From assembly GCA_022793375.1 (NCBI GenBank), contig JAAWCS010000015.1, forward strand, positions 90,684 to 154,683: 64,000 nucleotides of DNA, written 5' to 3'. This document shows, one piece after another, positions 1,561-57,185 of this stretch (the first letter of the stretch is position 1; each line of letters starts with the position of its first letter). The notes under the pieces are model-generated. The model saw nothing but the letters and a program-made list of their open reading frames with translations, was not told the DNA's origin and ran no database searches. The position numbers and the translations under genes were made by a program. The DNA comes from Lachnospiraceae bacterium. GTDB taxonomy: Bacteria > Bacillota > Clostridia > Lachnospirales > Lachnospiraceae.

Positions 1561-1653
1561 TTTCCTTATTTATGCCTGTGTTTTCAGGGCATACCGGGAC
1601 ACCCTTGTGGTGTTTCCTTATCTATGCCTGTATTCTCAATGCATACTTGCTTT
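1561..1653 (-). repeat. Interspersed ~52-bp leader repeat, locus A (one near-complete plus one degenerate unit)
   Basis: tttccttatttatgcctgtgttttcagggcataccgggacacccttgtggtgtttccttatctatgcctgtattctcaatgcata; matches units at 5151, 5203, 25145 and 32445. Confidence 0.8.
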
Positions 1654-1811
1654 CTTTTTGTTGAAATAACAATATTATCTTTTGTTTCAACATCTATGAT
1701 GTTATCATAACAGGGTTTTTTCTCCTTGTCAACTGTTGTTTTAAAAGTTATTTATTATACAAACTTTCTTTTCAAGCATCATGTAACGATTTGATACAAG
1801 ATGTACATTCC

Positions 1812-5150: not shown

Positions 5151-5254
5151 CCTCCTTTTTGCCCGTACTTTCAGGGCATAATGGGGCACCCTTGCGGTGC
5201 TTCCTCCTTTTTGCCCGTACTTTCAGGGCATAATGGGGCACCCTTGCGGTGCTT
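5151..5254 (-). repeat. Interspersed leader repeat, locus B: two exact-period 52-bp units
   Basis: cctcctttttgcccgtactttcagggcataatggggcacccttgcggtgctt twice in tandem (5151-5202, 5203-5254). Confidence 0.95.
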
Positions 5255-25144: not shown

Positions 25145-25230
25145 CCTCCTTTTTGCCCGTGTTCTCAGGGCATAATGGGACACCCTTGCGGTGTTTCCTC
25201 CTTTTTGCCCGTGTTCTCAGGGCATAATGG
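25145..25230 (-). repeat. Interspersed leader repeat, locus C (one 52-bp unit plus one truncated unit)
   Basis: cctcctttttgcccgtgttctcagggcataatgggacacccttgcggtgttt then cctcctttttgcccgtgttctcagggcataatgg; occupies nearly the whole gap between two genes. Confidence 0.95.
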
Positions 25231-25235
25231 TGCGA

Positions 25236-26078
25236 CTACTGGAACAGGGACAAAGCCTTTAGTCCGATCGTATACAGCCCCAGGCTGTACAAAGCGATCG
25301 AAGCCGGTTTTCCCAAAAGGATAATGAGCGTCATTTTCTTTAAACTCATGCGTGTTAAGCCTGCCAGGTAGCACAGGAAATCATCGGGCGCCACCGGGAA
25401 GAAAATCGCCAGCGCAAAAAATTTGTCGAAGCGGTTGCCTTTTTCCAGCCATCCAACGTACTTTTCATAGGTACGGGGATTGGAAATGCTGCGCACAAAC
25501 GGCGCTCCGTAACGTCTGGCCAGCAAAAACGCGCAGATCGAACCGGCGCAGATGCCAATGTAATTATAGACAAATCCCCATACCGGCCCGAATACCAGCA
25601 CGCCGGCCAGGCAGCCGATCGCTCCCGGCAGGACAGGCACCACGACCTGTATCCCCTGCACCAGGGTAAAAATAAACGGGGCCCAAAATCCGAAGCTGTT
25701 CAGAAAATTTTCCAGCGCTTCCTGCGACTGAAAAATCCCCTGCTTATAGCAGTACCAGACAAACAGTCCCATCAATATCAGTCCGACGGCCGTGCTGCCG
25801 TTCATCACCCATTTCATGGTTCCTGCCAGCGCTTTCTCACGCTCGCTCATCGCCGCCGCTTCCGGCGCCGCCTGCAGCGCTCTTAGCTGCCGTTTTTCTC
25901 TGTGTCTGTCGATTCTTTCTTCTATTTTTTCCACTTTGCTCTCAATTTTATCTTCCACATTCTGACAGGCGTTTTTGACGGCTTCCCGGCCGACGGCCAA
26001 TCCGCCCGCAGCGACGGCCGCAACCGCCGCGCTCTGCCCTGCCCCTATTTTCTGTCCCATTCCCAGCTGTTCTTTCAT
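25236..26078 (-). CDS. TVP38/TMEM64 (VTT domain) family membrane protein
   Basis: FWAPFIFTLVQGIQVVVPVLPGAIGCLAGVLVFGPVWGFVYNYIGICAGSICAFLLARRYGAPFVRS...FPVAPDDFLCYLAGLTRMSLK. Confidence 0.9.
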   Translation of the reverse strand: MKEQLGMGQKIGAGQSAAVAAVAAGGLAVGREAVKNACQNVEDKIESKVEKIEERIDRHREKRQLRALQAAPEAAAMSEREKALAGTMKWVMNGSTAVGLILMGLFVWYCYKQGIFQSQEALENFLNSFGFWAPFIFTLVQGIQVVVPVLPGAIGCLAGVLVFGPVWGFVYNYIGICAGSICAFLLARRYGAPFVRSISNPRTYEKYVGWLEKGNRFDKFFALAIFFPVAPDDFLCYLAGLTRMSLKKMTLIILLGKPASIALYSLGLYTIGLKALSLFQ

Positions 26079-31636: not shown

Positions 31637-32437
31637 TTAGCAAGTGTATCGCTCTCTCAGCAGGAGTCTCTCCTTGTCCCCGATCCCCAGTTGTTCCTCT
31701 AAAAACCGGTCGATCCCGCCGTATTCCTGCTCCAGAACAGTCAGCGCTGCCTGCAAAAAGCTTTCGTCCACCGAATCCACGATCGCCGCCTGCTCCGCCA
31801 GAAGCGCATCGCCGGTATGTTTTTCAATCACACGGCGCTGTTCTTCATGCATCTTGCTGAGCGCCTCGTTCGTCGCCAGGTAATCCGCCAGAATCGTTTC
31901 CCGCGAAGCCCCCAGCGCGTGAAGAAGCAGGGCCGCCGTCACGCCCGTGCGGTCCTTTCCCATTGTGCAATGCCACAAGAACGCTCCCTCTCCATGGCCG
32001 CACACCAATTCAAAAAAGGCTTTCAGCTGCTTGATGCAATAGGGATTCTGCACCATCATCGGATAGTATTTTTGCAGATTTTCCTTTGCCCGTCCTTTCA
32101 GGCTTCGCAAAAAAATCAGTTTCCGCTCCAGCGGATCCTGCTCGGCTGCCTCTTCGCGGGTAATCCCCATCGCCTCCTCCGGAAAAATCGGGTTCCAGCG
32201 ATATACCGCGCCCGCCAGCTCCTGATCCGGATGCTGCCCGCATTCCACACGCGTGCGCAGGTCCACAATCTCCGTCACATGGTAACGGCCGCACAGTTCT
32301 TCCCGGTCTTTCTCTGTCATATCCGACAGCTTGCCGGTGCGCAGCAAGAGCCCTGCTTTCACCTGCCGGCCTCCCGCCAAGGGAAGCCCGCCTAAATCCC
32401 TTACATTCTGTATTCCCTCAAATACGATCTGCGGCAT
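31637..32437 (-). CDS. Tyrosine-protein phosphatase (Y_phosphatase3 type)
   Basis: GIQNVRDLGGLPLAGGRQVKAGLLLRTGKLSDMT; active site HCTMGKDRTG. Confidence 0.92.
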   Translation of the reverse strand: MPQIVFEGIQNVRDLGGLPLAGGRQVKAGLLLRTGKLSDMTEKDREELCGRYHVTEIVDLRTRVECGQHPDQELAGAVYRWNPIFPEEAMGITREEAAEQDPLERKLIFLRSLKGRAKENLQKYYPMMVQNPYCIKQLKAFFELVCGHGEGAFLWHCTMGKDRTGVTAALLLHALGASRETILADYLATNEALSKMHEEQRRVIEKHTGDALLAEQAAIVDSVDESFLQAALTVLEQEYGGIDRFLEEQLGIGDKERLLLRERYTC

Positions 32438-32444
32438 GGTGTTT

Positions 32445-32496
32445 CCTCCTTCTTGCCCGTGTTCTCAGGGCATAGTGGGACACCCTTGCGGTGTTT
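32445..32496 (-). repeat. Interspersed leader repeat, locus D (52-bp unit)
   Basis: cctccttcttgcccgtgttctcagggcatagtgggacacccttgcggtgttt; its GGAGG lies 7 nt from the phosphatase ATG. Confidence 0.93.

Positions 32497-38993: not shown

Positions 38994-39001
<8 letters not shown>
38123..39001 (-). CDS. DUF58 domain protein
   Basis: GSRKSLQKGQSAEFSDFREYRPGDDLRRLDWNAYARLDRLYIREYMEEKEAMVSVLIDTSASM. Confidence 0.94.
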
Positions 39002-39950
<949 letters not shown>

Positions 39951-39958
39951 CCGCTTTT

Positions 39959-40012
39959 CCTCCTTATTGCCCGTGTTTTCAGGACGTCTACGTCCGCCTC
40001 AAAGGCGTTTTT
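39959..40012 (-). repeat. Interspersed leader repeat, locus E (divergent unit)
   Basis: cctccttattgcccgtgttttcaggacgtctacgtccgcctcaaaggcgttt; GGAGG 8 nt from the MoxR ATG. Confidence 0.7.
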
Positions 40013-40015
40013 CGC

Positions 40016-41491
40016 CTACTGGTTTAAACTCTCAAAATAATCCCGGATCACCGGTTCCATGCCGCTTGGATAACGGTCGTTTGCAATCCCTTCATAGGCA
40101 TTGTCGGTATATTCGCCGATGACAGTGTTGTAGTCCACATGTTCCCCCTCCCAGGCCAGCCCGTTCTGTGCCCGATAGTAATCCGAATTCTCGCCGCCGT
40201 TTTTTTCTCCCGTCAAAGCCGCGTCGCTGCCGGTCTTTCCCGGAATGCTTACATAATCATGAAGCAGATCGCTGCTCCCGGTCCCGCGCCCCGCGCCGCC
40301 CCCGTTTCCGGCGCCGTTTCCATTTCCGCTGCCGTCCCCGTCTCCGGCGCCGTTTCCGTTCCCGTTACCGTCTCCGGCGCCATTTCCGTTTCCGCTGCCG
40401 TCTCCATCTCCGGAGCCGTTTCCGTTTCCGCTGCCGCCTCCGTCTCCGGCGCCATTTCTGTTCCCGTTGCCGTCACCGTCTCCGGCGCCATTCCCGTTTC
40501 CGGAACCGTCCTCATCTCCGGAGCCGTTTCCATCCGCGCCGCCGGCGCCCTCTCCCGCTCCTTCCCTGCCGTCCGAACCGCCGGCCCCGTCCTGGCTGCC
40601 GTCTTTGTTTCCGGAACCTTCCCCGGAACCGTCTTTGTCGCCGGGGGCAGGCCCGGCCTGTGCCGTCTGCCGCCCGCTCGCCTCCGCGGCCGCCCTAGCC
40701 AACGCCTGGGCGTCCGCCAGGCCCGCTGTCTGAAGGTTCTCAAGCGCCGCCGCCATACTCTCAAGCGTCTGCGCCGTCTGCCCGTATTTATAAGCAAGAC
40801 GGTTCAGCGCCGCCTGCAGGCTTTCCTGCGAATCCGCTTTCGCCAGCTCTTCGCCGGAAAGCGCCAGTGCCTTTGTAAGTTCCCTGAGCCGTTCTTTCTG
40901 TTCCTCGGTAAGCGCATTTTGCTCTATTTCCGTCAGCGCCTCCAAAAGATTCTCCAGGGTTTCCTTTTCTTCGCCGGCCTGCTCTTTTATTTCCTGCCTA
41001 AGCTCTGCTCTCTCCCGCGCGGGAGAGGGAATTAATGCCGCCCCCACGGTCACAAGAACCGCCAAAAGAAGCGCCAAAAGGCGGCGCTTGTGCGGCCGCA
41101 GGGGAATCCGTATTTTGTCATACATCTTTTTGTAATGACGCACCGCATCCTCTCTTTGCAGTCGGGACAGGAGATCCTCGTTTTCCAGCTGCCAGCAGGC
41201 CGTAACCATGCGTTCCTGCAGCCCGAACGAATCCAGCCGCCCGGCGGCCTGCATCCGTCCGACCTTTTTGCAGAGGGCATACAAAACGCCTGTCAGCAGC
41301 CCGGCCGCAAAACACAGCCCGGCCGCCAGGTGCGCTTCATAAAACGGATATACGAGCGCCGCCGCTTCGCAGACAATCGCCGCACAGCCGCCGGCCGTCA
41401 TTCCCAAGGTCCCGTAATCCAAAAGCCGCGCCAGCCGGATGCGCCGCCGCCACCGGTCAAGCTGCCCGGCGAGATACTTTTTTTCGTCCAT
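40016..41491 (-). CDS. Membrane protein with coiled coil and Gly/Asn/Asp-rich region (DUF4175-like layout)
   Basis: N-terminal TM segments, long EL/ALTE helix region, then GDGSGNGNGAGDGDGNGNRNGAG repeats; between ABC permease and MoxR. Confidence 0.6.
   Translation of the reverse strand: MDEKKYLAGQLDRWRRRIRLARLLDYGTLGMTAGGCAAIVCEAAALVYPFYEAHLAAGLCFAAGLLTGVLYALCKKVGRMQAAGRLDSFGLQERMVTACWQLENEDLLSRLQREDAVRHYKKMYDKIRIPLRPHKRRLLALLLAVLVTVGAALIPSPARERAELRQEIKEQAGEEKETLENLLEALTEIEQNALTEEQKERLRELTKALALSGEELAKADSQESLQAALNRLAYKYGQTAQTLESMAAALENLQTAGLADAQALARAAAEASGRQTAQAGPAPGDKDGSGEGSGNKDGSQDGAGGSDGREGAGEGAGGADGNGSGDEDGSGNGNGAGDGDGNGNRNGAGDGGGSGNGNGSGDGDGSGNGNGAGDGNGNGNGAGDGDGSGNGNGAGNGGGAGRGTGSSDLLHDYVSIPGKTGSDAALTGEKNGGENSDYYRAQNGLAWEGEHVDYNTVIGEYTDNAYEGIANDRYPSGMEPVIRDYFESLNQ
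40300..40570. repeat. Low-complexity coding repeats encoding (G-N/D/S)n
   Basis: Imperfect ccgtttccgtttccgctgccgtctcc-type units in frame. Confidence 0.85.
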
Positions 41492-42419
41492 GCGTTTTCA
41501 CCCGTCGTTTGATCATTGGATTGATGCGTCTGGCCGCCAGCAAAAGAAACAGAAACGAAATCGCCAGCAGCAGGACGGTAGAGACAATCAGCCAGCTGTT
41601 GCCGGTCGCCACCAGGCGAATCGGCCCGCCGATCTGCGTCGTCCCGGAAAGCCTCCCTGCTGAAATCGTGTTTACGATCGATTCGCCTGTCATAATCCGC
41701 ATAAAAAACTCGGTTAAATAGACCGCCGGATTCACCAGCAGAAATAAAAGCACATTCTCCCACCAGCTATAAGAAACTCCTCCGCTATACACGGGCGAAT
41801 ATCCGGTGTTTATCGACAAAATGGACACAAAGACAGACGGCAGTGCGGTTCCCACAAAGAAAAGGAAATAAAACCCATAGGAGAATATCACGGCGCTGAC
41901 CGTTTTCCGGCAGAAGGAGGAGCAGAGAATGCCGATGCTGGCCGCAAAAAAGGACAGCAGAAGCGTTATCGCCAAAAACCAGAACAAGGCGCTCCAGGGC
42001 ATGCCGCCGATGACAAACGGAAGCGCCATTACCGGCATGCTGGCCGCCACATACAGCATACTCTGGACCACCGCTGTCATCACTTTTCCCCACACAATCG
42101 AAAAAGGCGTCATACTGGTCGTCATCATTATATCAAACGTCTGCCGCTCCTTTTCGCCGGAGATTGACGACGCTGTGCGGATCGGCACGACCAGGCCGAG
42201 GATAACGATCTGCGTCACCGCCAATACCGGATAGAGCCACACCATCTGGCTGTATATGTTTGTCACGGAATAGCGGTTTCCCTCCTGGATCGAAAGCATC
42301 GTCAAAAAGAAAACAAGCGCCAGAATGGCTTCATACACAAACACGCCCCAGCAAATGCGCATACTGCGGGACTGTACCTTCACATCTTTTTTTACAATGG
42401 GATTCAAACGCATGTTCAT
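41457..42419 (-). CDS. ABC transporter permease (ABC-2 type)
   Basis: NPIVKKDVKVQSRSMRICWGVFVYEAILALVFFL...SSISGEKERQTFDIMMTTSMTPFSIVWGK. Confidence 0.88.
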   Translation of the reverse strand: MNMRLNPIVKKDVKVQSRSMRICWGVFVYEAILALVFFLTMLSIQEGNRYSVTNIYSQMVWLYPVLAVTQIVILGLVVPIRTASSISGEKERQTFDIMMTTSMTPFSIVWGKVMTAVVQSMLYVAASMPVMALPFVIGGMPWSALFWFLAITLLLSFFAASIGILCSSFCRKTVSAVIFSYGFYFLFFVGTALPSVFVSILSINTGYSPVYSGGVSYSWWENVLLFLLVNPAVYLTEFFMRIMTGESIVNTISAGRLSGTTQIGGPIRLVATGNSWLIVSTVLLLAISFLFLLLAARRINPMIKRRVKTHGRKKVSRRAA

Positions 42420-42425
42420 TTTCTC

Positions 42426-42482
42426 CCTCCTTTACTGGCTGCCCGTGTTCTCAGGGCATTTTGGCGCCCTCTGCGGCGTTTG
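42426..42482 (-). repeat. Interspersed leader repeat, locus F (variant; overlaps the 3' end of the ABC ATPase gene)
   Basis: cctcctttactggctgcccgtgttctcagggcattttggcgccctctgcggcgttt; encodes ATPase C-terminus NAAEGAKMP* and carries the permease SD. Confidence 0.75.
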
Positions 42483-43404
42483 CTTCCTCTCTGCCGGTCA
42501 CACGCATAAAGAGCGTTTCCAGATTTCCCTCCTGCCGGTTAAACCCGGTGACCACCACTTCGTTGGCAATCAGGGTCCCGATAAATGCTGCGATCTCCCG
42601 TTTTGTCATGGTGTGCGACAGCCTAAGCTCATGCTCGCCCACCGAATCCACCGAAGCCTTCGCCTGCTCTCTGGCAATCCGCACCGCCGTCTCGCGGCCC
42701 TCGTCAAAAGAAACGACCAGCTGGCTGGCGCCGAATACGCTTTCCGTAATTTGGTCGATGGGGCCGGACGCCACCAGACGCCCCTGATCCATGATACCGA
42801 TGCTGTTGCACATCTCCGAAAGCTCCGAAAGGATGTGCGAGCTGATGACAATCGTCTTGCCCATACTCTGCAGATTTAAAAGGAGTTCTTTCATCTCCAC
42901 CCGGGCCCGCGGGTCAAGACCCGAATTGGGCTCGTCCAAAACTAACAGCGCCGGATTATGGATCAGAGCCCGCGCCACGCAAAGGCGCTGCTTCATCCCG
43001 CGCGACAGCGTATCTACAAAAACTTCTTTTTTATCGGCCAGATTTACCAGTTCTAAAAGATCGTCCGAAATGCGCGCAATCTCTGCCGAACTCATGCGGT
43101 ACATGGAACCGTAAAAATCCATATATTCCCGTACTTTCAGATTATCGTACACGCCGAAAAAGTCCGGCACATAACCGATCTGCCGCTTGAGCTCCTTCTG
43201 GCGGGCCAGCGCGTCGATGCCATTGATCGAAATGCTTCCTCTATCCGGCGGCATCAGCCCGCACACCATGCGGATCGTCGTCGTCTTGCCGGCCCCGTTC
43301 GGCCCCACGAAACCAAAGAGATCGCCCTGCGGGATGTGCAGCGACAGGTCGCTGACGGCCCGGAAGTTCCCGTAATTCTTACACAAATGGTCAATCCGCA
43401 GCAT
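42451..43404 (-). CDS. ABC transporter ATP-binding protein
   Basis: MLRIDHLCKNYGNFRAVSDLSLHIPQGDLFGFVGPNGAGKTTTIRM; LSRGMKQRL; LLVLDEPNSGLDP. Confidence 0.95.
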   Translation of the reverse strand: MLRIDHLCKNYGNFRAVSDLSLHIPQGDLFGFVGPNGAGKTTTIRMVCGLMPPDRGSISINGIDALARQKELKRQIGYVPDFFGVYDNLKVREYMDFYGSMYRMSSAEIARISDDLLELVNLADKKEVFVDTLSRGMKQRLCVARALIHNPALLVLDEPNSGLDPRARVEMKELLLNLQSMGKTIVISSHILSELSEMCNSIGIMDQGRLVASGPIDQITESVFGASQLVVSFDEGRETAVRIAREQAKASVDSVGEHELRLSHTMTKREIAAFIGTLIANEVVVTGFNRQEGNLETLFMRVTGREEANAAEGAKMP

Positions 43405-45547
43405 TCCCGTTTTCCTCCATTTCCACATATGAATACAGGCAGCCATAGGAAATCTCGTTGTACTGGCCTGCGCTCGCCCGCTCATAGTCGGTCACGACGC
43501 CGGCCAGAATGCCGTTTTGTGCGCTGTCCGCCTTTTTTTCCTCCGCCATGCCAATCCCGATCAGAAGCGCCGCCATCGCATCCTGCTCATAATCGTCGGC
43601 GATCCGGCCGTCCCCGTAAATATTCAGCAGGTCATACAGCAGGTTGTCATAATAAGTGGCATAACTCATAAATACGCACCGGCCGTCGGCCATCGCCTGT
43701 TTCAAATCCAGGCTTTCCCCGGATTTCACATCCGCAAATATCAGCAGATCCGAGCCGTTCCACACGGCCAGATACGCCAGGTCATAGTCCGTTTCGTTGG
43801 TAACCGTCCCTTCGACCCCATTTGCGCCGGCCAGGTCGTTTTCATCAAGTTTCAGTCCCTGGCCTGTCAGATTCCCTTTCGCCGATGTCTTTCCCTCCGC
43901 GTAGAGAAAGCCGCTGTCAAAATTGGCGTCGGGCTTTATACCGACAAAAAGTCCGTTTTCATTGGTCGTCACCGTATAATAATACTCCGACGTATTGGTA
44001 TTGCTGTAGTGATAACTCCCGGCCCAGCCCGGCCCGGCCGCGTCGTAGCGCTCATCCAGTTGAATTTCCCAGGGGTTAATGCCGGAACGATACGCCAAGA
44101 AGGACGTAGCCGCCCGGCTGCTGTCCGCCCGCTGCGCCGTAACCGAATACACTCTCATCTCATTGACCCGCGCGCCCTGTCCAAAGAAATACACGCCGCC
44201 AACGAATAAAAGGCTGAGCACCGGTACCGCGGCCCAGTACCACTCGCTCTTTTTCCGTTTGCGCAGAATCAGGTACAGCACCGGCCCGGCCGCCGCCACA
44301 TATACCCCGATGAGGATTTCCAGCCATTTAAAATCCACATTTGCGTGCAGGCTGTCCAAAAAAGCCAGCGACCGCATTCCCACATATTCTATATTGGTTT
44401 GTCCGTTGGCAGACTGGAAATGTTCGGACTGGTACATCGTTTCCTCGTATATCGCTTCGATGGCGCTTTCATGCAGATTTTGCAGTTCTTCCTCGCCAAA
44501 GGATAAAAAGAATACCGCCACGCTTCCGGAACCGACACAAAAAACAGCGGCCGGATGGCGGTTGCTCTCATAAAAGTCGCAGTGCGCCTGGCTGTAGTCC
44601 AGTTCGGCTACCGCCATCCGGGAAAAATCCACCCCCGCATCCGCGTAATCCCAATACGAGCCGTAGCGATCCATCTCCCCGGACAGACGATTGCTCTCGC
44701 CCGGCTCGCTCACCCCGTCAAGCCGGACCCCCAGCAGGTCCTCTCCAAACCCGGACAAAGTTTCCCTGGCATAGGCCCCCGTCCCGATAAGCAGCCAGCC
44801 CCCGTTCAGCACCCAGTCCTCAAGCGCCCGGATATTTTCTTCTCCCAGCGTCGATACGTCAAACTGGTCAATGACCAAAAAGTACAGCCCGCTTAAACTG
44901 CTCTGCAGGTTATCCGCGGTCAGTTTGATAAGCTCCAGCGGACTGGAGAAATCCTGCAGATAAAAGTCCATTCCCCCGGCATCCAGGTAGGTAAGGCCCG
45001 CATAGTCGTCAGACAAAATCCCGACCGAAATTCCGGCCGCCTTGTTGCCGAATACATTCTTTAAAGCATGCGTCTGCAGCAGATTTCCCTGCTCATCCAA
45101 AAAATTCAAAGAACAGAGTCCTCGTACCACATCCGCCGCACTCTCTAATACATGGATCGTAAACTGCTTTTTGCCCTGCGACGGAAGGGTCAGTTTCGTA
45201 TTGTACGCACAGTTGCGAGAGCTTCCGCTTGCGAATATCACCTGCACCGTACCGGAAAAATCCTCGCCGCCGTTTTCCACCGTAACCTGCATTACGTAAT
45301 AACCGTTATCCTGCCGCAAAAAAGCCACGTCGCCGACCAGAGACGGCCCGCCGTCCTCCTGCCCGGCCGCAGGCTCGTCCGCATAAAGCCCACGCGCGGC
45401 GGCCTGTGCCGGTAAGCCTGCTCCCAGCAAGGCAAACAGACAGGCAAATGCCAGACACAGCGCCGTCACTGCGGGTTTTTTCGCGTTTCTCCTCCGACCG
45501 CTTACACGGCCTGTTTTTGAGAACAAACCCGGCTTTATCTGTTTCAT
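43391..45547 (-). CDS. Exported membrane protein with GATase1-like domain, partner of the ABC transporter
   Basis: Signal peptide, LSDDYAGLTYLDAGGMDF, VLNGGWLLIGTGAYARETLSGFGEDLLG, C-terminal TM/soluble region; overlaps ABC ATPase start. Confidence 0.65.
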   Translation of the reverse strand: MKQIKPGLFSKTGRVSGRRRNAKKPAVTALCLAFACLFALLGAGLPAQAAARGLYADEPAAGQEDGGPSLVGDVAFLRQDNGYYVMQVTVENGGEDFSGTVQVIFASGSSRNCAYNTKLTLPSQGKKQFTIHVLESAADVVRGLCSLNFLDEQGNLLQTHALKNVFGNKAAGISVGILSDDYAGLTYLDAGGMDFYLQDFSSPLELIKLTADNLQSSLSGLYFLVIDQFDVSTLGEENIRALEDWVLNGGWLLIGTGAYARETLSGFGEDLLGVRLDGVSEPGESNRLSGEMDRYGSYWDYADAGVDFSRMAVAELDYSQAHCDFYESNRHPAAVFCVGSGSVAVFFLSFGEEELQNLHESAIEAIYEETMYQSEHFQSANGQTNIEYVGMRSLAFLDSLHANVDFKWLEILIGVYVAAAGPVLYLILRKRKKSEWYWAAVPVLSLLFVGGVYFFGQGARVNEMRVYSVTAQRADSSRAATSFLAYRSGINPWEIQLDERYDAAGPGWAGSYHYSNTNTSEYYYTVTTNENGLFVGIKPDANFDSGFLYAEGKTSAKGNLTGQGLKLDENDLAGANGVEGTVTNETDYDLAYLAVWNGSDLLIFADVKSGESLDLKQAMADGRCVFMSYATYYDNLLYDLLNIYGDGRIADDYEQDAMAALLIGIGMAEEKKADSAQNGILAGVVTDYERASAGQYNEISYGCLYSYVEMEENGNAAD

Positions 45548-45555
45548 ATGCATCT

Positions 45556-45607
45556 CCTCCTATTGCTCGCATTCTCAGGGCATAATGGGACACCCCCGCG
45601 GTGCTGC
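45556..45607 (-). repeat. Interspersed leader repeat, locus G
   Basis: cctcctattgctcgcattctcagggcataatgggacacccccgcggtgctgc; GGAGG 8 nt from ATG at 45547. Confidence 0.88.
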
Positions 45608-49129: not shown

Positions 49130-49234
49130 AAAGGGGCTGTTGCAGAACAAAGATTCTACACAGTATATGGTATTTATGCGCAAACCGGCGCCGCCATATT
49201 TTGTGTTTTATCCGAGTTTTGCAACAGCCCCTTT
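49130..49234. repeat. 105-bp nested palindromic element, copy 1
   Basis: Perfect 15-bp ends aaaggggctgttgca/tgcaacagccccttt; internal atatgg...ccatat; shares interior with 57081-57185. Confidence 0.9.
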
Positions 49235-57080: not shown

Positions 57081-57185
57081 GAAAGAGCTGCCGCAAAACA
57101 AAGATTCCCTACACTATATGGCATTCCTGCCGGAACCGGCGCAGCCATATTTCGTGTTTGATCTGAGTTTTGCAGCAGCTCTTTT
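57081..57185. repeat. 105-bp nested palindromic element, copy 2
   Basis: gaaagagctgccgcaaaac/gttttgcagcagctctttt (17/19 paired), inner atatggc..gccgg-aa-ccggc..gccatat. Confidence 0.9.

Follow-up and report, generated by a model that had tools for sequence, protein, structure and literature searches.

A tandem-growing repeat with two hairpins beside the ribosome-binding sites of Lachnospiraceae genes: a candidate leader-RNA family

The 64,000-nt stretch of DNA analysed here (the window) carries a 52-nt repeat, single or in tandem, in sense orientation just ahead of the Shine-Dalgarno (SD) site of unrelated genes. The repeat appears to represent a Lachnospiraceae-wide family of structured RNA that is undescribed so far. 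Whether it is a mobile, tandem-expanding family of leader RNAs that acts in cis at translation initiation is, in our judgement from sequence comparison, about evenly balanced. As a rule, a dispersed repeat is litter between genes, and a structured leader RNA keeps to fixed genes. The element combines both at the ribosome-binding site (RBS), and close relatives differ by its recent gains and losses. As a result, the spread of a new regulatory RNA through a genome can be tested directly in common gut bacteria, which also offer leaders with a naturally varying number of units before the same gene.

Units in the window and their link to start codons

The window belongs to a genome (G000) of 3.42 Mb in 88 contigs that is 93% complete, and its genus includes uncultured Lachnospiraceae MAGs. 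The first-pass annotation had reported about ten units at seven loci. All seven loci are found where it had placed them, on the minus strand and in sense with the next gene; the recount of units comes to 11, of which ten are clear and one, depending on the cut-off, counts as degenerate or truncated. A 26-nt core pattern matches the window six times at up to three mismatches, as compared to 0 in 100 shuffles. The units are as follows:

1561-1612, minus strand: unit with a TAAGGA-type tail (covariance model, 65.6 bits at 1564-1615)
1613-1658, minus strand: degenerate upstream partner of the 1561 unit (18.5 bits at 1616-1658)
5151-5202, minus strand: unit 2 of a tandem pair, before a short FeoA-sized ORF (74.6 bits)
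5203-5254, minus strand: unit 1 of the same pair, H1 variant AGCACC/GGTGCC (core pattern and covariance model)
25145-25196, minus strand: unit 2 of a tandem pair, before an LTA-anchor type glycosyltransferase, ATG 25140 (83.0 bits)
25197-25236, minus strand: 5'-truncated unit 1, beginning in the linker right after the upstream stop TAG (pattern and junction comparison)
32445-32496, minus strand: single unit upstream of ORF 31637-32437, first annotated as a phosphatase (81.2 bits)
39959-40010, minus strand: diverged single unit upstream of a MoxR-like ATPase, ORF 38994-39950 (53.1 bits)
42426-42482, minus strand: single unit with a tail insertion, before ORF 41457-42419, first annotated as an ABC permease (covariance model)
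45556-45606, minus strand: single unit upstream of an exported protein, ORF 43391-45553 (53.3 bits)

The GGAGG that had been described 4-8 nt 5' of a start at five loci (glycosyltransferase, phosphatase, MoxR, permease, and exported protein) is confirmed. At 25145 it lies directly before ATG 25140, and the exported protein has possible starts at 45553 and 45547. The 1561 unit lies upstream of 1-phosphofructokinase (ORF 612-1544, ATG 1544), whose separate GGAGGAG differs from the unit tail TAAGGA, and the short ORF after the 5151 unit (ATG 5116) likewise has an SD of its own. At 42426, the TGA within the unit is the stop codon of the upstream ABC-type ORF 42451-43485. The frame that matches this ORF in a relative, G004, appears to run into the next gene, and the insertion seems to have separated two genes that were overlapping or coupled.

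A second, unrelated interspersed repeat of ~104 nt is present in the window at 49131-49234 and 57082-57185 (copies 79% identical). It has inverted ends, GGGGCTGTTGCAGAAC ... GTTTTGCAACAGCCCC with a T run, and 25 matches in the genome, and it looks like a MITE or a terminator-type repeat.

A search of the same genome with a covariance model of 52 positions and two stems (R2) reported 179 units. Within 870 kb of the genome, this model (E <= 0.01) finds at least 203 units and a simple profile finds 199 in 97 arrays of 1-7 units each with a 50-53 nt period; these 870 kb were picked around matches, and therefore the unit densities are not to be extrapolated. The arrays, which precede about a hundred genes in all, occur inside operons and before first genes. 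The longest include those of five and seven units (L092 4774-5031, G000:C72; L075 5868-6174, G000:C3), and the unit variation in them is a possible natural copy-number series.

The bias towards start codons and sense orientation that had been proposed from the window holds genome-wide. With gene starts taken from ORFs in MAG drafts, 80 of the 94 arrays that have enough flank are followed, 5-32 nt past the core of the second hairpin (H2), by an ATG that opens an ORF of 60 codons or more, as compared to 13.9% of random positions and 7/94 when these arrays are read on their antisense side. The 14 arrays that lack such an ATG mostly precede a GTG or TTG start (TTG in acetate kinase), a slightly more distant start, or a short gene. 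Given these controls and the explained misses, we consider both the near-exclusive sense orientation and the linkage to start codons real. At the loci of other genomes, an ORF start follows 42 of 47 terminal units and short genes, such as one that is rpmJ-like, follow two more.

The downstream genes are as unrelated as they had seemed at first. Their products, 89 proteins with 148 Pfam families, include leucyl-tRNA synthetase (leuS), thioredoxin, HisC, Rpe, 1-phosphofructokinase, and beta-galactosidase, and no pathway coherence was found among the 89. This diversity argues against a single-pathway riboswitch, and a metabolite riboswitch was rejected as a candidate on this ground.

RNA structure and the Shine-Dalgarno site

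A unit consists, in order, of a hairpin (H1), an ACC linker, a near-invariant AUG, the bulged H2, and an A-rich tail that is often SD-like. H1 is ACACC-loop-GGUGU, a stem of 5 bp with a loop of the GNRA or UNCG type, and is followed by YCC or ACC, 2-4 free bases, and the AUG. H2 is UGCCCUG-ARAA-CA-C-GGGCA, a stem of ~7 bp with U25-A43 as its first pair, one bulged base, and an A-rich loop. About nine A/G-rich bases lie 3' of H2. An intrinsic terminator or attenuator was rejected, since this tail has no U-run.

Leader structure had been proposed for the repeat, and compensatory covariation in the stems backs it. A MAFFT alignment not fitted to the structure has seven double-changed cells versus 1.3 when shuffled, a set of 150 units from the window's genome has 68 versus 15, and the cross-genus set has 88 versus 33, with 90% paired as compared to 23-50% when slid; alignments A3 and A5 are fitted to the model and so biased towards it, whereas A2 is not. 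On the own-genus sense strand, G-U pairs (51) outnumber A-C (13). A-C is commoner across genera because one H1 pair there is often C-A. The H1 loops are mostly GCAAG or ACAAG (GCAA type) in the own genus, whereas across genera c(UNCG)g closes 31 of 59 units, in which each of the four bases is found at N. Such an exchange points to selection at the RNA level, and among the features compared the H1 loops are its clearest apparent sign.

The AUG is kept in 188 of 199 units of the window's genome although A24 is unpaired, and its spacing is constant. These features would fit a leader peptide with a split RBS, in which H1 shortens the distance between a unit's tail SD and the AUG of the following unit from 22-23 nt to ~8 nt, and re-initiation on the gene is under the control of a mini-ORF, which reads AUG-YCC-UGA in the own genus. 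There is a precedent in the split RBS of T4 genes 38 and 25, where a hairpin reduces 22 nt to 5 nt (PMC3014915). We find this reading scarcely credible for the element: across genera there is no stop enrichment in the AUG frame within 36 nt (the three frames give 48%, 18%, and 45%), and the AUG is kept in first units, which usually have no upstream SD.

Positions 44-51 are the least conserved stretch of the unit genome-wide. The tail may be GGAGG, TAAGGA, AGAGG, or a non-SD sequence such as GACAGATG, and tails such as GACAGAGGAAA, TATATAATGAAA, and AATAATAAGGAAA are continued by an AAAGGAG of its own that precedes the start codon. Many units have a GGAG-like tail after the bulged H2, a tail sequence that is not conserved, and many lack a canonical SD of their own, so GGAGG is no fixed part of the unit. 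The MoxR junction in G004, which has no unit, reads TAG-AAGGAGG-AGACACCACA-ATG, and the glycosyltransferase junction in a unit-free relative reads TAG-TAAAGGAGG-TACAGGA-ATG. The idea of a cassette that delivers an RBS finds no support in the form proposed, because unit-free relatives have an SD at the same place and many units are non-SD. Since the unit-free relatives that were checked keep the SD, it is reasoned that the unit was inserted beside an existing SD rather than creating it. On the sequences compared, it is growth of the array after insertion beside the SD that duplicates the tail.

The predicted probability that the SD is unpaired is 0.585 with the unit, 0.634 with the unit shuffled (p = 0.002), and 0.690 without it, which suggests a small predicted loss of SD accessibility in the presence of the unit.

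The hairpins could instead act on mRNA stability or processing, by shielding the following cistron at its 5' end against 5'-3' decay once the transcript is cleaved or by marking a cleavage site, and the outcome would be cistron-specific mRNA levels. Firmicutes use hairpins at 5' ends against RNase J, and the hairpins of the element lie directly 5' of the SD, both within operons and before first genes. We regard this role as decidedly unlikely because it leaves the near-invariant AUG, the ACC linker, and the strict spacing to the SD unexplained.

Insertion, tandem growth, and distribution

The repeat had been thought a copied or mobile cassette, and in accordance with this idea the orthologous junctions give clean presence or absence. 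Nineteen junctions could be compared with G004 (~85% identical) and, once, with another relative, G006, the status being read from the paired sequences: ten are empty, eight have units that differ in copy number or sequence, and one has a remnant. At the 25145, 39959, and 42426 loci the array is missing from both G004 and G006, which indicates gains in the lineage of the window. No unit was seen at the G006 counterpart of the 45556 locus. In another genus, an ABC-transporter gene has at least seven units in one genome (G548) versus one in others (G485, G391). Adjacent units of an array share 84% of tail positions as compared to 49% between loci, and this likeness, strongest in the tail, indicates that arrays grow locally.

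The two ends of an array behave differently. The 3' end is constant, whereas only 28 of the 97 first units are intact at the 5' end and the others begin at positions 2-24. In truncated first units, identity is 0.88 in the part that is kept and 0.30, the random level, in the part that is lost. A fixed 3' end with a variable 5' end could reflect 5'-truncated copying; repeated deletion at the left edge is the alternative. A comparison of the left flank with the terminal tail for target-site duplication gave a permutation p of 0.057 in 27 arrays. One elaboration is that the element is copied through RNA and targeted to SD sites, after which array length would set a shared translational control. 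The purine tail of the transcript (AAGGAAA) would pair with the SD strand of the target and the element would be written from its 3' end, so that sense orientation, a 3' junction fixed at the SD, and variable 5' truncation would follow. We offer this elaboration as highly doubtful.

Several known means of mobility were tried and rejected. The units are direct repeats with short internal stems only and have no terminal inverted repeats, as opposed to classical MITEs. A Y1/REP transposase (PF01797) was found in none of seven genus genomes, with positive controls and in assemblies 72-98% complete, and the lack of this IS200-like enzyme argues against a REP/RAYT system. Mobilisation by a reverse transcriptase (RT) was set aside, as no cognate RT was found: the window's genome yielded a single RT, a defence enzyme (DRT) of the UG24 type that is 1101 aa long and has an HD-CE domain (L276 1602-4907, G000:C76). 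The small protein that adjoins it matches the RT-associated family RTas1299. G006 has one RT, matched in two pieces. No carriage of the element by phage or plasmid was found.

The exact core matches only four named species records among 85,462, a collection that possibly does not include the window's own genome. A broader model (R3, built from alignment A4) detects units of this plan in 37 of the 299 Lachnospiraceae genomes sampled and, order-wide, in 10 of 295 genomes, three of them outside Lachnospiraceae, where the matches are weak and appear spurious. These three resemble chance or coding sequence, and a distribution shared with the order's other families was therefore rejected. In the phylum-wide sample, R3 finds the window's genome only and none of the 249 others; the large searches score few candidates per genome, and so such absences are soft. 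Within the genus, copy number ranges from 0 or 1 up to ~200. By eye, the element precedes ribosomal protein genes, rpsM-like and rpmJ-like, in other genera of Lachnospiraceae, and at least seven tandem units precede a sugar ABC ATPase (L261, L253, L234).

This patchiness bears on the possibility of a selfish or neutral dispersed repeat, whose structure would serve its own copying and which would survive where it is harmless, just 5' of the SD, without regulating the host. About half of the comparable loci are empty in a relative, copy number varies as widely as stated, the downstream genes are diverse, and tandem homogenisation goes together with variable 5' truncation at a fixed 3' end. All of these fit such a repeat, and the ten empty junctions fit it equally well as they fit a regulatory element. 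A selfish repeat is, in our view, unlikely yet to be taken seriously: compensatory change and tetraloop exchange retain the structure family-wide, placement is near-exclusively 5-32 nt before starts instead of in any intergenic space, and the genome has no Y1/REP transposase and a single RT of the defence type.

Translational role and known parallels

A cis-acting leader RNA, the reading we put first, would work as follows. The unit is inserted in sense, 3' of the upstream stop codon (or promoter) and 5' of the SD, and then expands in tandem. It would be transcribed as the last part of a 5' leader or intercistronic spacer, and the paired hairpins would act in cis on the region where translation starts, probably by tuning how accessible it is to the 30S subunit via weak pairing of a conserved CC with the SD; recognition of the hairpins by a trans-acting factor is also possible. 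Unrelated genes would then share one translational input that is tuned by copy number. Counting against a cis-acting role are the small size of the predicted SD occlusion, the frequent C-A mismatches at one H1 pair across genera, and the poorly conserved presence at individual genes among close species, with 10 of the 19 junctions empty.

That the repeat belongs to no described family, as was first supposed, agrees with the searches. Rfam covariance models, which include riboswitches and ribosomal leaders, find tRNAs only in the window at the gathering cut-off, and the sub-threshold matches, scored for the window stretch and ten loci, do not exceed the level expected by chance. A literature search of partial coverage found no description of the element.

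REP/BIME, BOX, RUP, ERIC, and CREE are small interspersed palindromic repeats of bacteria. They resemble the element in being short, structured, and dispersed, with copy number that differs between relatives. In contrast to them, the element is tied to the SD, in sense orientation, and in tandem at the start codon, in a genus without a RAYT/Y1 transposase.

Judging from the passages covered, the closest counterpart in the literature is formed by the TAACTGA direct repeats, which occur in marine Beggiatoaceae, Cyanobacteria, and Bacteroidetes (PMC4679880). In those passages, tandem sets are described at considerably more than a hundred loci, most of them a few nt before start codons of genes without a functional theme; a translational role is proposed, and canonical RBSs are reported to be rare in the carriers (PMC4679880). 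The likeness, as far as those passages go, lies in arrays just 5' of start codons and in the absence of a gene theme. The TAACTGA unit as described there is 7 nt long and belongs to different taxa, whereas the unit here is 52 nt long, unrelated in sequence, and adjacent to an SD that is retained. Unlike the element, the TAACTGA repeats have no two-hairpin fold described in the passages covered. The split RBS of T4 genes 38 and 25 (PMC3014915) and ROSE-type thermometers share with the element an SD-adjacent hairpin that could alter ribosome access or spacing; the element is instead a dispersed repeat found before many genes that are unrelated, and its two hairpins lie 5' of the SD of the gene.
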